DNA of 64,000 nt from Halogranum rubrum (GTDB lineage: Archaea > Halobacteriota > Halobacteria > Halobacteriales > Haloferacaceae): the NCBI RefSeq assembly GCF_900114455.1, contig NZ_FOTC01000003.1:1-64000 (forward strand). The letters run 5' to 3'. Numbering within the stretch: position 1 is the stretch's first letter; the number at the start of each line of letters is the position of its first letter. Positions 3,591 through 20,099 of the stretch are shown here, in pieces. Made by a program: the position numbers and the translations under genes. The notes below the pieces were generated by a model. That model was not told the DNA's origin, did not search any database, and was given only the letters and a program-made list of their open reading frames with translations.

Positions 3591-3630
3591 GTGACCGACT
3601 TGCGCGCTCTATTCAGCACGACCACAAAAA
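3591..3630. repeat. Dispersed repeat copy R5 (first half only)
   Basis: GTGACCGACTTGCGCGCTCT is followed by ATTCAGCACGACCACA, after which similarity stops. The initial GTG opens a frame into the next gene, so the repeat may supply an upstream alternative start. Confidence 0.7.
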
Positions 3631-3698
3631 CCAATCAACAATTGGGGGATTTCAACAAGGCAAGGTCAAGCTATCTGACTGACCGAGAGACTTATAAG

Positions 3699-4582: not shown

Positions 4583-4846
4583 CTACTGGTTTTCTAAGTC
4601 AACGGCCTCCAATTCACCGCTCAGGTACATCTCACCCAATTCAGTAATCCGATACATCGCCTTTGATTCATGCACGCGATTTAACAGGCCCTTCTCCACC
4701 AAAATTCGGCATCGTTGGGAGATATATCGCCGATTGTAGTCAATATTAAAAGCGATAGTACTCGGGTTCGCCGCGATCCCCGCTTCACTTAGCAACTCAA
4801 GTATGGCATCGTCCGCTCGGGTCATCCAACTAACACGGGGACGCAT
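4583..4846 (-). CDS. PhiH1-repressor-like winged-helix protein
   Basis: From the ATG at 4846 the 87-residue product begins MRPRVSWMTRADDAILELL, the typical start of haloarchaeal proteins resembling the repressor of halophage PhiH. The middle (STIAFNIDYNRRYISQRCRIL) is the recognition part of the winged helix and the end (YRITELGEMYLSGEL) is the wing and cap. An upstream ATG at 4891 would add 15 unusual residues. It is divergent from the nuclease operon starting at 4973, and a perfect inverted repeat lies between the two starts, so autoregulation and control of that operon are likely. Confidence 0.8.
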   Translation of the reverse strand: MRPRVSWMTRADDAILELLSEAGIAANPSTIAFNIDYNRRYISQRCRILVEKGLLNRVHESKAMYRITELGEMYLSGELEAVDLENQ

Positions 4847-4903
4847 TGAGACGTGATATTCAAAGCCACAGTAAAACCACACCGCTCTCAAAGAAACAAA
4901 TGT

Positions 4904-4931
4904 ACAAACGTACTCTACAACTTACGTTTGT
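4904..4931. promoter_or_regulatory. Perfect inverted repeat, probable repressor operator
   Basis: ACAAACGTA (4904-4912) and TACGTTTGT (4923-4931) are exact reverse complements separated by 10 bp, placing the half-site centres about 19 bp apart, close to two helical turns. The site lies between the divergent wHTH repressor gene and the nuclease-TFB-recombinase operon, just upstream of a TATA-like CATATAG (4933-4939). Confidence 0.6.
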
Positions 4932-4972
4932 GCATATAGTTATCTCCTCAGGGCACCTACGAGAATGATGTC

Positions 4973-6058
4973 ATGGAGCCAACTGCCGCCACCCTCGTCC
5001 CGAAAATCGGGAAAGAAAGCTTCACTCAGTGGCAACAGCACCGTGAAATCAGGCAGAACATCAAATCCGGTAAGACTTGGTTCAATCTGCCTCCACCAGA
5101 GAAGCCCCCGGAGCGGCACAGCCCACATCAATTGAATCAATGTCACCGGAAAGTCTACTACCAGCAACTCAACGCGCCCGAAGAATCGAGAGACCCATCA
5201 GGAATCTTCTGGACAGGAACGCAGTTCGAGGAAGAGTGGATGATGCCGTACCTCGAACACATCGCAAATGAAAGCGGTGCCTACATCCGGAATTCAATGT
5301 GGGTGGACTACACAGTCGATACGGATGTCGGTCCGATCCACATCCGAGGGATGACCGACCCGGTAATCGTTGACGAAGACAGCCGCCCAATTCTCCTCAC
5401 AGAGATTAAAACCAAACAATCGGTGAAGTACGCGACAGAACCAAGTGACCATCATGTCGCTCAAGCCTATGCTTACCTACGGGGATTATCTGAGGAGTGG
5501 GAAGTCGACCTCAGGGACGCGGTTCTCATCTACGGTGACCGAACAACACTCGAAATCCAGGTTTTCCATATCGAGTTTGACTTAGACCGCTGGCAGGATC
5601 TCGTGGTTGCTTGGGCAACTAATCATACTGTGTTTCGGATGAATCGAGAACTCCCTCCGGCTGACCCCGAGTTTGGGTGGGAGTGCAAGTTCTGCTCGTT
5701 CAAGCACCGGTGTGGTCGAGCGAAAGATTCGAAGTTCAGTGACGTCGATGCTTACGGGTTCTTGCCGCTCTTCAACGAGTATCCTGAAGCCAAGGTCATC
5801 GAGTACTTGGACAGTCATGATGGAGCGAAGCTTACTCCAACGCTTGCGAGTCGTTACCCGGATTTGATTGATCAGTACGAAGTATATGAGTGGGCGTGTC
5901 AGCGATGCTCTGCAATCTATTCGTTCGGCGTGATTGAATGGGACGGTAACACCGAGAGTCTACCATTATGTCCAGGGTGCGCTAATGAGGCGATACCTGT
6001 TCCGCTCGCTGAACCTGGACCGGAAGCACAGCGAATTCTAGATGAGGACGCACAATGA
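4973..6058 (+). CDS. Cas4/RecB-like PD-(D/E)XK nuclease with Fe-S cysteines
   Basis: The 361-residue protein has the architecture of Cas4-type exonucleases. Cys57 in QCHRKVYY and the trio Cys238, Cys241, Cys247 (CKFCSFKHRC) are the four expected 4Fe-4S ligands; Asp129 (GMTDP) and Glu144-x-Lys146 (TEIKTK) form the nuclease site. Gln164-x-x-Tyr resembles motif III. Beyond the usual family length a C-terminal zinc-ribbon-like piece has CxxC at 309-312 and 333-336. No CRISPR array or other cas gene is visible, so this is probably a Cas4-like nuclease of a mobile element. It starts an operon and overlaps the next gene by 4 bp. Confidence 0.8.
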   Translation: MEPTAATLVPKIGKESFTQWQQHREIRQNIKSGKTWFNLPPPEKPPERHSPHQLNQCHRKVYYQQLNAPEESRDPSGIFWTGTQFEEEWMMPYLEHIANESGAYIRNSMWVDYTVDTDVGPIHIRGMTDPVIVDEDSRPILLTEIKTKQSVKYATEPSDHHVAQAYAYLRGLSEEWEVDLRDAVLIYGDRTTLEIQVFHIEFDLDRWQDLVVAWATNHTVFRMNRELPPADPEFGWECKFCSFKHRCGRAKDSKFSDVDAYGFLPLFNEYPEAKVIEYLDSHDGAKLTPTLASRYPDLIDQYEVYEWACQRCSAIYSFGVIEWDGNTESLPLCPGCANEAIPVPLAEPGPEAQRILDEDAQ

Positions 6059-6873
6059 GTAAGTCCTCGAAAAACGAGCAGCTTTGGTTACAGAATCCCT
6101 CTCAGACAAAGCACTGTCCAAGCTGTGATTCTATTGACTTGGATTGTTCGATGAAAGGAATTGACGCGATTTGTAACGCTTGTGGATTTTTAATTCGGAG
6201 CTTCGCGAACATTGACCCTGAAAGTATTCCAAACAATCGCGGGTCCTCTGAAGCCGATGACGAGGCGAATTTGTCGTGGTTTGACTATTGCAAAGTATCG
6301 AATAGCACCGAATCTCAAATTGCAGCCGCGATTTCTGTGTTGGATGCCGTCTCAGATAAGTTCGACATTCCGGACAATGTGCGTGTTCAAACCGCTGAAC
6401 TGTATGGGGCGGTCGCAATCCGAAACTTCACCGATGGACGACTAACGGAATCTATCGTCGGATCACTCATCTATCTCGTTGCTCGTAAGTCTGGAAATGC
6501 AATTCCGCTTAGCCGGGTTGCCGAGCACCTAGAACTTGAGTCATCCAGACTTGACCGTCTTGTTCGCTTAGTTCAACAGGAGTTGGGAATGGAGCACGCT
6601 GGTTGTCTCCCCGAAGATTATCTGGTTTTCCTCTGCGCAACCCTTGGGTATTCGGAGGACGCCCGCCTTAACGCGTCTGAATTACTTTGTCAAGCCCATA
6701 CAGCGGGAATAACAAATGGTCGAAATCCTGTGGCAGTTGCTGGGGCGGCTTTGTACTGCTCTTCGGGTAGAGTTCACTCTCAGCAAGAGGTTGCGAAGGT
6801 AGCAGGTGTGTCAAAAGAGACCATTCGGGTCAGAATTCGTGAATTCCGCGACGAGGGCTTAATAGATGAGTGA
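6055..6873 (+). CDS. TFB-like (TFIIB family) transcription factor
   Basis: The 272-residue product has an N-terminal zinc ribbon (Cys21, Cys24, Cys40, Cys43) and two cyclin-like repeats at about 80-170 and 180-270, ending in a helix-turn-helix (EVAKVAGVSKETIRVRIREF) typical of the last TFB repeat. TFB recruits RNA polymerase with TBP at archaeal promoters. The ribbon-to-core linker is short and divergent compared with housekeeping TFBs, which fits an element-encoded variant. The start overlaps the upstream nuclease stop (ATGA) and the end overlaps the recombinase start by 8 bp, so the three proteins are translationally coupled. Confidence 0.8.
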   Translation: MSKSSKNEQLWLQNPSQTKHCPSCDSIDLDCSMKGIDAICNACGFLIRSFANIDPESIPNNRGSSEADDEANLSWFDYCKVSNSTESQIAAAISVLDAVSDKFDIPDNVRVQTAELYGAVAIRNFTDGRLTESIVGSLIYLVARKSGNAIPLSRVAEHLELESSRLDRLVRLVQQELGMEHAGCLPEDYLVFLCATLGYSEDARLNASELLCQAHTAGITNGRNPVAVAGAALYCSSGRVHSQQEVAKVAGVSKETIRVRIREFRDEGLIDE

Positions 6874-7807
6874 GTCTACAAAGCACTTATCTGACATTGC
6901 TGTGGAGGATGAGCGAGTTACAGCCGCAATCTACGCACGGACATCATCAATCGTCCAAAGGTTTGGTTATTCATTGGATGAGCAAGTTCGACTTTGTCTC
7001 GAACGGTGTCAACTGCTCGGGTGGGACACTCAGTATGTCTTCCGAGATGAGGCAGAGAGTGGAAAGAACATTGATAGACCGATGTTCCAGACAATGATGA
7101 CGACAGCTGAGCAGGGACTTTTTGACGTCATTGTGTTTTGGAAGCTCGACAGGTTTTCACGAAGTCTACTTCATGCAGTACAACTTGAATCCGAACTACG
7201 TGGGTTTGGAGTTGGACTTCACAGTATCACAGAACAGATTGACACAACCACATCCTCAGGTCGTTTCAATTTCAGAAACCTCGCGAGTGCAGCAGAATTT
7301 GAGCGAGATATGATCAAGGAGCGGACAAGGATGGGTCTGAAAGCGCTCGCGGTAGATGGTCGATGGCCGAACTCTCAGCCACCATTAGGATATGAACTGT
7401 CAATAGATGGGCGGCTACGTATCTCAGCCGAAGAAGCGAGACTCGTTAACCAGATTTTTGAACGGTACGTCGAGGTCAAATCAATGCCAGAGGTAGCTCA
7501 TGAACTCAATAGACAGGCAGTTTCTACAAAACGGGGAAATGAGTGGACGAGTCGTGCTGTTAGGGATGTATTGAGAAACGCGCTCTACATTGGCTGCTAT
7601 GTCGTTTCCGAGATTTCCAAGGATATTCCTGAGTACCAAATCGTATCAAAGGAGCTGTTTGAGAAAGCAACAACTATTCGATTCCGATTTCGAGGCCAAG
7701 GAAGCAGTCGTTCACGAATGGCGTTGCATCGGAAGCAACAATCAGTAGACCACGTGATTGATCAGTATCAATCCTTTATAAATCAAGACAGACCAGTCGA
7801 ACTCTGA
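6866..7807 (+). CDS. Serine recombinase (resolvase/invertase family)
   Basis: The 313-residue protein has the resolvase catalytic domain at about 18-165: the nucleophile in YARTSS (Ser27), the DEQVRLC helix, and KLDRFSR (Arg96, Arg99). This is followed by a recombinase domain (PLGYEL, RNALYIGCYV) that binds DNA in larger serine recombinases. It lacks the long zinc-ribbon and coiled-coil C-terminus of phiC31-type enzymes. It is the third gene of the nuclease-TFB-recombinase operon and is convergent with a second serine recombinase 6 bp downstream. Such enzymes cut and exchange DNA at short att or res sites. Confidence 0.85.
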   Translation: MSESTKHLSDIAVEDERVTAAIYARTSSIVQRFGYSLDEQVRLCLERCQLLGWDTQYVFRDEAESGKNIDRPMFQTMMTTAEQGLFDVIVFWKLDRFSRSLLHAVQLESELRGFGVGLHSITEQIDTTTSSGRFNFRNLASAAEFERDMIKERTRMGLKALAVDGRWPNSQPPLGYELSIDGRLRISAEEARLVNQIFERYVEVKSMPEVAHELNRQAVSTKRGNEWTSRAVRDVLRNALYIGCYVVSEISKDIPEYQIVSKELFEKATTIRFRFRGQGSSRSRMALHRKQQSVDHVIDQYQSFINQDRPVEL

Positions 7808-7813
7808 AGGGAT

Positions 7814-9172
7814 TCAATTTCTTTGAGCCCTTCGCATCCTCTCCAATGAGCTTTGATTGGGCCATTTGGATTGGTGTGAGCATTCCTTACACTCGTAATT
7901 GTGGACGGTAAACTCACCAGTCTCTCTAGTTCCGTACTTTCTCAGCTCTGTGCTCTCACAATTAGGACATACAATCTCGATTCGTGGGGCGGAACTATAC
8001 AGGCAATCGATTCCGAATTTGTCGGCGAAGTTGAACGGATTCATGCTCTGGTTTGAGCTTGAACTCTTTTTTGAGATCTCTTCGATAATCTCGTTTGCTT
8101 CCCTAAACACGGACTCATCAACAACTGCGAGCTCGGGACTATCTACCACTACTTTATCTCTCTCCACACGGTCCGTTTCGAGTTCCATCGTCGGTTTCCC
8201 GATGTGTAGTGGCTTTTTCAATCTCCGTTTCACTTGCCCGCCATCGAATGTAGGGATCTCGGGGTACTCCTCGCTGAGAATTTCACCGGTTGTGGAGTAT
8301 GTCTTTTCCTCAAGGAAGATCTCGTACATCCGCTTGACAACTTCAACTTGGTTTGAATCAGTCTCGATCCAATTGTCACCAGATTCGTGTTCAATCGCCT
8401 GGTAACCAATTGGAATATTGGGTCGAACAGACTGCCAACTTATCTTCTCCTCAAACTTACGCACCATGGTCTCAGTGGAACGAGTCACTCGCGCTTCCAT
8501 CGAGACCTGGGCCATGAGAGCCTCAAGAGTTGTGTTTATCAAATCGCTTATCTTCCCAGTAATGTCGACATTTTTCGTACCCATTATGAGCGTGATGTCG
8601 AACTTTGACTGTAGAAGGTAGACAAAATACAGCGTTTCAGCCGCGTTACGGCCGATTCGGCTGATTTCGTTCACATAGAGATGTGTGATTTTTCCTGTTT
8701 GGGCGAGCTCAAACACCTCCTTGATGCCTGAGCGGTCGAAGTCGGTGCCTGTCTCTCCATCCTCTGTTATTGGATCTCGGATTAATGTGACACCGTCCTC
8801 ACGTGCGCGTACAACGAGTTTCTTGACCTGTGTTTCCAGACTGTCGCCGTCTTTTGCCTGCTCTGCTGTGCTCACACGGGCATAGATAACTCCTCTTTTA
8901 CCGCTGTCTTCCACGGTAACGTTCTGAGCGTCGAGGTATTCCCGGGCAGACTCTTCTGACTCACTGGCACACTGTGTCTGACCATCCATTACTCGGTCAT
9001 TCACCGACTGTTCAACGACCGTTTCTGGCTCAGGCTCACACTGGTCATCAGACGGTTGAGACTCGACATCGCCCTCGCTACTTGCTTCATTTTTCTCTGA
9101 GTCGTCGTCGTATCTGTCGAAAGACGACTGATGCCCTTCTCCGAGTGTTGCTTGATGAGGACCGAACGCCAT
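7814..9172 (-). CDS. Large serine recombinase with C-terminal zinc ribbon
   Basis: From the ATG at 9172 the protein has 452 residues. After an acidic N-terminal extension of about 90 residues, the catalytic domain starts with GVIYARVSTAEQ (Ser101) and continues with the conserved YVNEISRIGRN. A recombinase DNA-binding domain follows (IPIGYQAIE, LKKPLHIGKP) and the last 60 residues carry CPNC and CKEC, a zinc ribbon. An ATG at 9340 is in frame but lies only a few bp from a TATA box (9343-9350), so it cannot be the usual start; the 56 codons it would add also look non-coding. A 170-bp region with repeated GTATGAT sequences precedes the gene. Confidence 0.8.
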   Translation of the reverse strand: MAFGPHQATLGEGHQSSFDRYDDDSEKNEASSEGDVESQPSDDQCEPEPETVVEQSVNDRVMDGQTQCASESEESAREYLDAQNVTVEDSGKRGVIYARVSTAEQAKDGDSLETQVKKLVVRAREDGVTLIRDPITEDGETGTDFDRSGIKEVFELAQTGKITHLYVNEISRIGRNAAETLYFVYLLQSKFDITLIMGTKNVDITGKISDLINTTLEALMAQVSMEARVTRSTETMVRKFEEKISWQSVRPNIPIGYQAIEHESGDNWIETDSNQVEVVKRMYEIFLEEKTYSTTGEILSEEYPEIPTFDGGQVKRRLKKPLHIGKPTMELETDRVERDKVVVDSPELAVVDESVFREANEIIEEISKKSSSSNQSMNPFNFADKFGIDCLYSSAPRIEIVCPNCESTELRKYGTRETGEFTVHNYECKECSHQSKWPNQSSLERMRRAQRN

Positions 9173-9216
9173 TAGCAACCACCTCCCGGGAAATTGCTCG
9201 TATGGTTTTGTGGAAG

Positions 9217-9350
9217 GTATGATCCCGGGAGCGTCTTGAACTCGTGTGGGATGTATGATTTCGGAGTGCGTTTTAAGCCATGGACAGACCTTTTCACCGG
9301 AGGTATGATACGTGCAGCGTACGCTGACCGAATCATACATCGGTTATATA
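9217..9350 (-). promoter_or_regulatory. Promoter region with GTATGAT repeats upstream of serine recombinase
   Basis: GTATGAT occurs at 9217-9223, 9253-9259 and 9303-9309 and inverted (ATCATAC) at 9332-9338. A strong minus-strand TATA element (TATATAAC) lies at 9343-9350, which predicts a transcript beginning near 9320 with a leader of about 150 nt. The repeats could be binding sites of the recombinase or of a repressor, or part of an att/res site. Confidence 0.45.
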
Positions 9351-9414: not shown

Positions 9415-10311
9415 TTAGTTACCGGAATTAGAGCTAATACTGTTGAGCAGATTCTCGTGCTCCTCACGAAGTTCGTCCTTGTCCATCTTCAGGTATCGAA
9501 CAGTGGAGCGAATATCACGATGACCCATCAGCTCCTTAATTTGGTAAATGTCCCCACCATTTCTCTGAATCCGGTTTGCGAAAGAGGCACGGAATCGATG
9601 AGTATACACATTCTCGATACCTGCCCGGTCACCAATTCGCTTGATGACCTGAAGAAGACCGTTCCGAGTGAGACGATTACCAGTTCGTGACTCGAACACC
9701 GGATCATCAGCATCCGCGTTTCGGACATTCCGATACCGCTCAAGTACTTCTGCGCACTCGTCAGAGAAAATCGCAGTGTACTCAGTGTGACCTTTCGCCT
9801 CAGTGATTTCAGCAGTCTTCTCATCAAGATCCACGTCACGGAATTCCAAATTCACTGCCGCCGAAGCTCGGACACCGGACGAGCTGAGAAACAAAACCAG
9901 AGCCTCGTCACGAAGCTTAGTAGTGTTCGTCACGAACATCTCAAGCTCTTCCTCAGAAAGCGGTTCGGGGTCTCCGCAGTGCCGTGGAAGGGAAGAGTAG
10001 TTCCCGAGTTCATCCATGCGCCCTGCGTGCTCAAAATAGTACTCAATCGCATTTTGCGTGTTGTTGATGTGGCTGTTCGAGTAACCTTCGTCAATCATCT
10101 CCTCTCGGAACTTCATCACGTGAACATCAGTAGGGGCGAGGGTCTCAACATCTTGGAGGAATGCCTTCGCCATTGTGACGTGCTGACTGACGGTTTTCGA
10201 TGAGAGGCTCTTCTTAACGCGCAGGAAGGTTTCAAAACCCTCCATGCTCTCCCGAAGACGCTCAGAAAACGACGTGGGCTCGTCTTCTTCAAGGGCAGTT
10301 ACGACACTCAT
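9415..10311 (-). CDS. Tyrosine recombinase / integrase (XerC/D-like)
   Basis: The 298-residue protein has a SAM-like core-binding domain (about 20-105, containing GYSNSHINNTQNAIEYYF) and a catalytic domain with the full active site: Arg148 (SGVRAS), His238 and Arg241 (THRFRAS), His264 (GHRDI) and the nucleophile Tyr273 (VRYLKM). It would act in integration or excision of the surrounding element. Its ATG overlaps the stop of a 55-residue gene upstream. A close relative lies at 19066-19893, sharing the YSNSH-NNT-NA-EYY tract. No tRNA is adjacent to this copy. Confidence 0.88.
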   Translation of the reverse strand: MSVVTALEEDEPTSFSERLRESMEGFETFLRVKKSLSSKTVSQHVTMAKAFLQDVETLAPTDVHVMKFREEMIDEGYSNSHINNTQNAIEYYFEHAGRMDELGNYSSLPRHCGDPEPLSEEELEMFVTNTTKLRDEALVLFLSSSGVRASAAVNLEFRDVDLDEKTAEITEAKGHTEYTAIFSDECAEVLERYRNVRNADADDPVFESRTGNRLTRNGLLQVIKRIGDRAGIENVYTHRFRASFANRIQRNGGDIYQIKELMGHRDIRSTVRYLKMDKDELREEHENLLNSISSNSGN

Positions 10312-14648: not shown

Positions 14649-16376
14649 TCACACACCCACTAACTCTTCTGCTTCTTCCCGTCGTCGAGAACGTTTTCGG
14701 ATTTCGCTGATATCATCGATAGCTAAGTCAACGTAGGTCCGGCTACTGCGGGTCTCTTTTTTAACTACGTCTTCGGCAGCAAGAGCATTTACGGCGCTGC
14801 CGACATGGCTAGTCGTACTAATGTTGAGATGGTCTGCAATGTCTTCGTATGTCACAGGTTCACCATGCTCAATAATACACCCTATAGTTCCATCAACATA
14901 TCTGGGTGATGAGGCGCTCTCCTTTGCAATCTCAATCGCGTCCCTCACTGCATCGTTCGAAATGAACTCACGGTATGTTTGTATTTCTTCAGATGGTTGA
15001 TCTGCGTCGTAATTGCTTGCTCGGGTGGCAGCGAGCTCCGATTCCAGTTCGTCAATTCGCTCACGAAGCCGTTCTGCGTTGTCTGCGTTAGGTTCAATCC
15101 CAAGGGCATCTCCGAGTCGTTGGTACGCCTCAGTTGCCTCATTGACATTCGCTTCAAACTGCTTGAACTGGTATGAAGCTTCAACTTCTTCGTTTAACGT
15201 TGAGATTCGCTCTTCGAGTTCTTTGTTCTTACTTCGAAGCCGTTCATTCTCGGTGCGAAGTTTTCGGATAGTCTCATTCTTTTCCTCTCGAAGCTCCTCC
15301 AATGTCGCTTTGACATCACCACCTGTACTCGTGTCTACCTGTGCTAGAGCCTCACTGAACTGGTCTGCAAGTTTTGTGACGTCTTGTGCTTGCTCCAACT
15401 CTGACCGAAGTTCCTCGATTTGGTCATCCCGTTGTTCAAGCTTCTGCTCAAGCTGAGCAACCCGATCTCGGCGTTTCTGTTCGCGTTTAGAGATGGCCTC
15501 CAACTCATCAACGATGTCCCCACTTACTGACTTGAGATTCGGGCGCTCAATATCGTTGAGCCCCGGTGTTGCACCTGCGTCAAAAGTCGACTTTCGCTTG
15601 AACTGAACCCGCTTGATGAAGTCATTCCAGTCTGTCATGAGGAATGCTTCACCGTCGTCAAGCTCTTGGACAGTGTCCGCATAGTCACTGCCGAGAACAC
15701 GTCTGACGGCAGCAGTATCGTTGTCCCAAGTCAGCCGATGCCACACCAGCCAGTCACACTGTGTGATAAAATCTTTCTTAACGTCTGCGGGGCGTTGACT
15801 CAACCCACACAATCCTAATCCATGTTTCCGGCCTCTTTTCGCGACTTTAATCAACATTTGTCCGCACTCATTGAGACCTCCACCTTCCGGGATGTACTCG
15901 TGGATCTCTTCAACGAGCATCAGGAACGGCTTCTTACGCTTCTTTTCGAGAGCGAATAGTCGCTGTGCGACGCCTCGTATGAGGTTCTCGGCAACAGAGC
16001 TATCAAGATAACCAGAGACGTCAAGAATGATCGGCACGTTCTCATCGAGAGCCAATTCGGCGATTTTGGCGGCATGTTCCTCGCTGACCTGCAGGTCACA
16101 CTCTTCATCCGCACCGACATGGAGCATCTCATACTGTTCCTTGAGACCGTAGTACTCTCCATCAACATCAACAATCAGTAGAGGGAAACCCTGTTCGAGG
16201 AGTTCCTCTGCGATAACGCTTGCAGAGTTGGATTTACCTGCACCGGATTTGCCAGTAATAAATCCTCTCCCCGTTAGCACCTCAACAACTGGGAGAGAGG
16301 TGCCATCCTGGGAGATAGTCAATGTCCGTTCTTCCCCAGGGGGCGGTGTGTCGTTTCCACCGGTGTCCATACTCAT
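14649..16376 (-). CDS. HerA/DUF87-type ATPase with coiled coil and C-terminal winged helix
   Basis: The 575-residue protein has the Walker A motif GKSGAGKSN (residues 42-50), a DGEYYG loop (72-77) typical of HerA/VirB4-like pumps, Walker B FLMLVEEIHEY (151-161) and the SQRPADV sensor (193-199). Residues about 295-430 are a long heptad coiled coil and the last 90 residues contain a winged helix (TYEDIADHLNISTTSHVGSA). HerA-type ATPases move DNA or partner with nucleases. No nuclease gene is adjacent; the nearest is the Cas4-like gene at 4973. It has its own promoter (16419-16436) and stands beside an operon of wHTH proteins. Confidence 0.82.
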   Translation of the reverse strand: MSMDTGGNDTPPPGEERTLTISQDGTSLPVVEVLTGRGFITGKSGAGKSNSASVIAEELLEQGFPLLIVDVDGEYYGLKEQYEMLHVGADEECDLQVSEEHAAKIAELALDENVPIILDVSGYLDSSVAENLIRGVAQRLFALEKKRKKPFLMLVEEIHEYIPEGGGLNECGQMLIKVAKRGRKHGLGLCGLSQRPADVKKDFITQCDWLVWHRLTWDNDTAAVRRVLGSDYADTVQELDDGEAFLMTDWNDFIKRVQFKRKSTFDAGATPGLNDIERPNLKSVSGDIVDELEAISKREQKRRDRVAQLEQKLEQRDDQIEELRSELEQAQDVTKLADQFSEALAQVDTSTGGDVKATLEELREEKNETIRKLRTENERLRSKNKELEERISTLNEEVEASYQFKQFEANVNEATEAYQRLGDALGIEPNADNAERLRERIDELESELAATRASNYDADQPSEEIQTYREFISNDAVRDAIEIAKESASSPRYVDGTIGCIIEHGEPVTYEDIADHLNISTTSHVGSAVNALAAEDVVKKETRSSRTYVDLAIDDISEIRKRSRRREEAEELVGV

Positions 16377-19065: not shown

Positions 19066-19893
19066 TTAGACATCCGTGTATCGGTCATATTGCTCGTCAA
19101 GTGCCTCACTACTCAAATGAACATATTTCATCGTGGCGGCGATGTCTTCGTGTCGCATGAGGGCCTTGACCACTGAGATGTCTGCCCCGTTCTCAATCAT
19201 ACTCGTGCCGAAGTAGTGACGAAACATGTGAACCGTAACTCGCTGGTCGATGTCCGCGTCACGCGCACGCCGTTTCACTATCTGCAAAAGCCCACTTCGT
19301 GTCAACCGGTTTTCTGACCGGGAGAGGAACAGCGACTCGTGTTCAGCATCTCTTTGCTGTAGATACTTTTCGATGGCGTCGGCGCAACTTTCCGAGATAC
19401 GAGCGATGCCATCTTTACCGAATTTCCCATCTCGTATCCTGAGTTTCCGTTTCTCAAAATCGACGTCGGTGACATCGAGATCACAGAGCTCTGACGCTCG
19501 AATCCCGCTCGATGCGAGTGTCTTGATGATTGCATAGTCACGGTAGGTATCGCAAGCATAGATGATGCGGCGGACTTGGTTGGCCGAGAGAATCTCCGGA
19601 AGTTGCTTGGGCCGGTTCAAGCGTTTGAAGTCGAACTCCTGATCGTGAAAGCTGTAGTAGTACTCGACCGCGTTCATCGTGTTATTCACGTGGCTGTTCG
19701 AGTACCCCTTATCCATCAGTTGCTCTTGGAAGTTCTTTGCTTCGCTCTGTTCGGGAAGCACGTCCTGGCAGCGGTCAAGGAAAACAGCGGCCATCATTCT
19801 GTGCTGGTCAACGGTCTTTTCGCTCAGTCCATGGTCGACTTTCAGATACCGCCTGAAATCGTCTAATATGTCGTCTCGCTTTGTTTCGTACAT
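19066..19893 (-). CDS. Tyrosine integrase adjacent to tRNA(CAU)
   Basis: I start it at ATG 19893 (MYETKRDDILDDFRRYL), giving 275 residues; an ATG 27 bp upstream is less usual. The active site is complete: Arg132 (SGIRAS), Lys at about 157-160, His222 and Arg225 (HMFRHYF), His248 (RHEDI), Tyr257 (KYVHLS). The core-binding domain contains KGYSNSHVNNTMNAVEYYY, nearly identical to the integrase at 9415. The gene lies 131 bp from the 3' end of a tRNA(CAU) gene, the classic position of an integrase at attR or attL. Confidence 0.88.
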   Translation of the reverse strand: MYETKRDDILDDFRRYLKVDHGLSEKTVDQHRMMAAVFLDRCQDVLPEQSEAKNFQEQLMDKGYSNSHVNNTMNAVEYYYSFHDQEFDFKRLNRPKQLPEILSANQVRRIIYACDTYRDYAIIKTLASSGIRASELCDLDVTDVDFEKRKLRIRDGKFGKDGIARISESCADAIEKYLQQRDAEHESLFLSRSENRLTRSGLLQIVKRRARDADIDQRVTVHMFRHYFGTSMIENGADISVVKALMRHEDIAATMKYVHLSSEALDEQYDRYTDV

Positions 19894-20024
19894 GCTTGTC
19901 TCACCTTGTGGTGGCCGCAAGCGTTCGGGTTGATGCCTTGTGGTCCGGGTGCTACCGGTGAGTTTGCACGAATAACGGCAGAGAACTGCCTACAGGCCTT
20001 ATAGCGAGTTGTGAAGAACCCAGA

Positions 20025-20099
20025 TGGGCCCTATCGGATTTGAACCAATGACCACTCGGTTATGAGCCGAGCGCTCTAACCAGACTGAGCTAAGGGCCC
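20025..20099 (-). tRNA. tRNA with CAU anticodon (Ile2 or elongator Met)
   Basis: This 75-nt cloverleaf has acceptor stem GGGCCCT/AGGGCCC with discriminator A, and anticodon arm CTCGG-CTCATAA-CCGAG, hence anticodon CAT. The T-arm contains GGTTCAAATCC. CAU tRNAs of archaea are Met or the agmatidine-modified Ile2; identity cannot be settled without comparing elongator Met. Its 3' end faces the integrase at 19893, making it the likely attachment site. Confidence 0.85.

Follow-up and report, generated by a model that had tools for sequence, protein, structure and literature searches.

The 64,000-nucleotide stretch of DNA analysed here (the window) forms one end of a 399-kb contig in a haloarchaeal genome of 4.57 Mb. 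The overlaps among its three plus-strand open reading frames (4973–6058, 6055–6873 and 6866–7807) measure 4 and 8 bp, which verified the originally predicted operon of a Cas4-like nuclease (NUC), a TFB-like protein and a serine recombinase (REC), and the PhiH-repressor-like gene said to lie upstream of it is also present. The three genes had been proposed as a possible complete module; however, a fourth member, the large serine recombinase REC2, and a candidate site had been missed. The features are listed below with their positions in the window.

4583–4891, minus strand: PhiH-repressor-like winged-helix (wHTH) protein, divergent from the operon, recognized by HTH matches
4901–4934: inverted repeat (arms 4901–4912 and 4923–4934), candidate operator
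4973–6058, plus strand: Cas4/RecB-like Fe-S nuclease NUC with an added C-terminal zinc ribbon (profile matches, alignment, model)
6055–6873, plus strand: TFB-like protein with a zinc ribbon and two cyclin folds, lacking B-reader and B-linker (profiles, alignment, model)
6866–7807, plus strand: serine recombinase REC, 313 aa, with catalytic and recombinase domains (profile matches)
7814–9340, minus strand: large serine recombinase REC2 with a C-terminal Cys4 ribbon, convergent with the operon
9217–9223 and 9253–9259, minus strand: two further half-sites, ATCATAC in the minus-strand reading, in direct orientation
9301–9340: 40-bp dyad, ATGTATGATTCGGTCAGCGT/ACGCTGCACGTATCATACCT in the minus-strand reading, just upstream of REC2 (probable start 9172), candidate crossover site or operator
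9415–10311, minus strand: XerA-like tyrosine recombinase, directly upstream of REC2 on the same strand
19066–19920: second tyrosine integrase, adjoining tRNA-Met
20025–20099: tRNA-Met

The GC content, about 0.5 at first, climbs to 0.66 near 20–21 kb of the window, the second integrase lies at tRNA-Met, and in a same-genus genome homology to the window starts exactly at the 3' end of this tRNA gene. The first 20 kb thus resemble an island beside tRNA-Met, with the far end beyond the contig, and the tRNA gene is probably the insertion site, as the same-genus homology begins at its 3' end. A search of the window for a repeat of tRNA-Met that would mark the far end found none; the contig ends at base 1. 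The island also encodes a HerA-like ATPase (14649–16376, minus strand; PADLOC HerA, 2e-27) with several small wHTH genes around it, the only defence-type match among ten island proteins scanned. The position upstream of REC2 is occupied by a tyrosine recombinase in several relatives too.

The PhiH-like protein is a likely regulator of the operon; in most of the loci termed types A and B below, the divergent gene upstream of the nuclease belongs to family PHIH or c5. The inverted repeat before the operon, originally described as a perfect operator-like sequence, is real but near-perfect, with 11 of 12 bp complementary around a 10-bp spacer. By eye, a similar repeat with a 10-bp spacer was recognized at the equivalent place in two related loci (L107 and L032). 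A further dyad, CAATCGGCGATTGAGTAAG, lies between the nuclease gene and a DUF7344 gene. An initial reading of it as an att site was rejected; it is more likely an operator because it accompanies serine-type as well as tyrosine-type units and, in locus L067, precedes two operon starts.

NUC matched the PDDEXK_1 profile (2e-5) and the cas4 profile TIGR00372 (1.4e-9), the latter with 38.1 bits against a curated cut-off of 65, thus below the level for a CRISPR-associated Cas4. The hallmarks of the Cas4-like/RecB-like Fe-S nuclease superfamily (D, ExK, QxxxY and four cysteines) are all present, and D129, E144, K146, Q164, Y168, C57, C238, C241 and C247 are invariant in 25 homologues. Invariant in the same homologues are the four cysteines of the predicted additional C-terminal CxxC pair (C309, C312, C333 and C336), which is therefore genuine; C312 and C333 are at least 90% conserved in a second homologue set. 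The predicted model of NUC, of moderate quality (mean pLDDT 78), matches Cas4 and exonuclease folds, with Cas4 SSO0001 (4ic1, 1.8e-6) as the best Foldseek match. In line with the original observation of a nuclease lacking a CRISPR context, no cas genes were seen within the window and Cas1 had no match in the whole genome (99.99% complete), in a search that detected Cas1 in nine control genomes. Judged by Cas1, no CRISPR locus accounts for the nuclease, and an origin from such a locus outside the window, which had been named as a refutation, did not materialize. A casposon was rejected as well, the Cas1 integrase being absent. A halovirus or provirus reading was also rejected: no record of the nuclease was found in known phage genomes, and IMG/VR viral contigs yielded remote relatives only (22–30% identity). 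NUC resembles the solo-Cas4/MGE-Cas4 nucleases (PMC5704561) in its PD-(D/E)XK site, four Fe-S cysteines, non-CRISPR setting and link to mobile elements, but differs in its extra C-terminal zinc ribbon and represents a haloarchaeal family of its own, neighboured by recombinases or Orc1/Cdc6; the main text of that paper contains neither halobact- nor halophil-.

The TFB-like protein matched TFIIB (PF00382, 6e-19) and scored 125 against NF001658 (cut-off 384), and its predicted model (pLDDT 85) matches TFIIB, with 1d3u_B as a Foldseek match. As in archaeal TFB and its paralogues, the zinc ribbon, two TFIIB cyclin repeats and the DNA-binding HTH are present, and the four ribbon cysteines are invariant. 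Unlike archaeal TFB, it is fast-evolving, in these loci always stands beside a serine recombinase, and lacks the B-reader and B-linker: in an alignment with two canonical TFBs, which have both elements, all 15 relatives are missing the entire stretch between GPEWR and HDKGL, these motifs included, while the polymerase-contacting zinc ribbon and the second HTH are retained.

REC matched the Resolvase (7e-35) and Recombinase (7e-17) profiles. Both REC and REC2 contain the catalytic serine, the arginines and the recombinase domain of large serine recombinases, REC without the C-terminal zinc ribbon and REC2 with a Cys4 ribbon; translation of REC2 probably begins at the ATG at 9172. With a mean column identity of 58%, REC is well conserved, as compared with 40% for the TFB-like protein and 28% for REC2. 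The rapid change of the two putative specificity proteins, the TFB-like protein and REC2, would fit changing target sites.

A search for the conserved gene set in other haloarchaea, originally set as both check and possible refutation, found the genes together in about 30 loci (counted from our own ORF calls and profile searches). Of the order's 342 genomes, 23 have the REC family and 47 the nuclease family. The TFB-like gene adjoins REC in 32 of 32 distinct REC loci and REC2 is convergent near REC in 30, while the nuclease gene is directly upstream in 25, near but rearranged in two and absent in three, two loci being at contig ends. The order is TFB-REC in 21 loci and REC-TFB in 11, so the linkage outlasts reordering. 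Hosts of the module include Halococcus, Haloferax, Haloplanus (for example Haloplanus ruber), Halorubrum, Halobacterium (for example Halobacterium sp. KA-4) and Natrinema, and it was also found on one Haloarcula marina plasmid. Within the REC-TFB group (L035, L037, L050, L051, L067, L078), several REC2 frames open with hydrophobic-looking segments before the catalytic domain, under which lies a conserved motif, TAGGTGACyTGTCCAtCC...TGCATATAT; these segments could be either a genuine N-terminus or a non-coding site.

The dyad before REC2 has an even centre, 16 of 20 matched positions and arms of up to 17 bp. Five genomes each have exactly one TATGAT-N22-ATCATA, in every case upstream of REC2; the TATGAT motif is common to only about seven loci, with different dyads or none elsewhere. 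A dyad of at least 14/20 was found upstream of REC2 in 17 of 30 loci as compared with 48 of 900 windows drawn at random from these loci (5%; binomial P around 1e-14, which treats the loci as independent, though they are partly related). Dyad classes, assigned by eye from motifs, change twice on the trees of TFB, REC and REC2, which is as few changes as three classes allow, versus six times on the nuclease tree. On these trees the TFB-like protein, REC, REC2 and the dyad class thus share one history. The position of the dyad also fits an operator, and it might be the operator of REC2 only, with the recombinases acting elsewhere: it lies just upstream of REC2, the extra direct half-sites resemble an operator array, and the dyad is single-copy, no second copy being found in the genome. 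We consider this rather unlikely, since the dyad class follows the recombinases and the TFB-like protein, not the nuclease, and 40 bp with arms of up to 17 bp is long for a simple dimer operator and suits large serine recombinase sites. One attempt to find an empty site or an attL/attR pair, a comparison of genome G173 with two same-genus genomes, found neither; synteny stopped at the module flank without a clean empty site. A flank in genome G202 maps into the middle of another contig.

Three arrangements were distinguished around the nuclease gene. Type A loci combine it with the serine unit (TFB-like protein, REC and REC2); type B loci have, after a short gene c13, the DNA-binding protein c6 and an Xer-like tyrosine recombinase, often twice; and in type C loci, often on plasmids, the nuclease is flanked upstream by Orc1/Cdc6 and downstream by a DDE transposase. 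Types A and B are intermixed on the nuclease tree, with nine switches between serine-type and tyrosine-type neighbours. A type B and a type A locus (L036 and L039) match at 87% identity between the start of the wHTH gene and the nuclease end, and then continue into different recombinase units. At the same identity of 87%, L037 and L039 have a 4.3-kb nuclease-REC-TFB-REC2 block in common and share nothing further in the stretches compared, and the sister nucleases of L061 and L128 stand beside units of opposite order. The neighbour of the nuclease has been repeatedly swapped among the serine unit, the tyrosine-recombinase unit and the Orc1/Cdc6 and DDE-transposase unit, and NUC is a separate haloarchaeal family inherited apart from the TFB/REC/REC2 unit. 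The original proposal of a mobile-element module thus holds as the best reading, but not as one co-inherited system, as the nuclease changes partners. As side observations, type B loci (L036, L041, L042, L052, L062) contain repeated c6/Xer-like pairs followed by two more tandem tyrosine recombinases, a multi-recombinase cluster that is reminiscent of recombinase-in-trio elements. In type C loci (L049, L056, L059, L063, L065, L077, L079 and others) the nuclease is accompanied by Orc1/Cdc6, a wHTH gene in divergent orientation and a DDE transposase of 600 aa, and this set may be a transposon-like unit of its own.

We somewhat favour the reading that the module is the site-specific recombination core of mobile, often defence-carrying haloarchaeal islands, with the TFB-like protein as DNA-binding partner. 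REC, REC2 and the TFB-derived protein form one co-inherited unit, in which REC2 and/or REC may act at the 40-bp dyad and the TFB-like protein may aid site recognition or set direction. The PhiH-like repressor probably holds the nuclease–TFB–REC operon off via the inverted repeat at 4901–4934. The nuclease would be an independently inherited helper beside units of three chemistries, and might process DNA ends in capture or transfer. The negative search for an empty site or an attL/attR pair, and HerA as the single defence-type match in the window's own island, speak against this reading. More tentatively, a TFB stripped of its polymerase-active-site elements could have been recruited as site-recognition or directionality partner of a two-recombinase shuffler of defence genes, a system that can be exchanged for tyrosine-recombinase or transposase units next to one shared Cas4-like nuclease.

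The TFB-like protein was originally proposed to switch on the element's own promoters. As a transcription switch it would replace or modify the host TFB and activate promoters of the element, the recombinases being merely co-operonic; its fold is clearly that of TFB/TFIIB, with the RNA polymerase-contacting ribbon and second HTH kept, and the REC-TFB group motif ending in TGCATATAT, upstream of REC2, could be a promoter. This role is weakened because the B-reader and B-linker are missing in all 15 aligned relatives; moreover, the unrelated DNA-binding c6 fills the equivalent place in tyrosine-type loci, as expected of a recombinase partner. A promoter-switch role is thus doubtful, and we regard this explanation as quite improbable. 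Little credence is given to the accretion of independent mobile genes at a hot spot beside the nuclease gene with no functional link. Three recombinase chemistries by the nuclease, other tyrosine recombinases crowding the loci and a variable gene order would agree with it, but invariable TFB/REC adjacency (32/32), REC2 convergence (30/32) and congruent dyad classes are not expected of random accretion.

PADLOC matches beside the modules comprise Avs2, DISARM DrmA and DrmMII, type I restriction, HmaC, DndD/PbeC and PbeA. The largest non-module gene within 6 kb had a match at or below 1e-10 in 11 of 20 loci and in none of 18 random control regions of the same genomes (Fisher P about 2e-4); the control is small (18 of 20 control regions were scanned), the scan of some test genes preceded the setting of the rule, and L074, one of the test loci, is neither type A nor B. 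In a single case, L061, a 66-bp direct repeat (the 3' end of the regulator gene) flanks 6 kb of defence-type genes, a segment that its relative L128 is without at that place; this suggests an insertion there, although the locus is rearranged. That the operon itself is an antiviral system with the nuclease as effector, as its location among defence genes and the Cas4-like fold might indicate, is very improbable, as it is without a sensor or known effector architecture, both recombinases keep their catalytic residues, and the same nuclease is found with Orc1/Cdc6 on plasmids.

With the large serine recombinases of TP901-1, A118 and SPbeta (YokA/SprA), the module shares Resolvase and Recombinase domains, catalytic residues and a long dyad by the gene, but here the recombinases are an unequal pair, REC is without the C-terminal ribbon, and attL/attR were not found. 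SCCmec CcrA/CcrB are likewise two large serine recombinases of a mobile island, and the best NCBIfam match of REC is the CcrB model, far under its curated cut-off; in contrast to SCCmec, the genes here are convergent, have a TFB-like partner and belong to a different host domain. The Gamma-Mobile-Trio islands of bacteria carry defence genes too and have a tyrosine recombinase module. No gene set homologous to that of these islands, named in PMC12715929, was found, and the module uses serine, not tyrosine, recombinases. We found no earlier description of the module in the open-licence literature; it is real, apparently undescribed so far and belongs with serine-recombinase mobile elements. The movement of archaeal defence genes is poorly known, and a conserved recombination unit with a candidate site would provide a handle on the mobility of haloarchaeal islands, and might yield an integrase tool that tolerates salt. 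If the TFB-derived protein is indeed linked to recombinases and not to promoters, a part of the basal transcription machinery would have been reused in an unusual way. Furthermore, the exchange of units beside one nuclease offers a way to test the role of a Cas4-like nuclease outside CRISPR.

An interspersed repeat of about 95 bp with the core GCGCGCTNTATTCAGCACGNCCACAGAAACC has window copies at 1061–1155, 1506–1600, 2850–2944 and 3591–3632. It was considered as the target of the module and rejected, being genome-wide with no tie to REC genomes. At up to three mismatches, 27 copies were found in the genome and none for the reversed control. Of 342 genomes, 39 contain the repeat, most of them at low copy number, and it occurs in L179 (G000:C6:500500-513500), L180 and L181. 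In L179, about a dozen looser copies in a single orientation are separated by one or few small genes, encoding lipoproteins, membrane proteins and an RHH/PIN-like pair, an arrangement resembling an integron-like cassette array.
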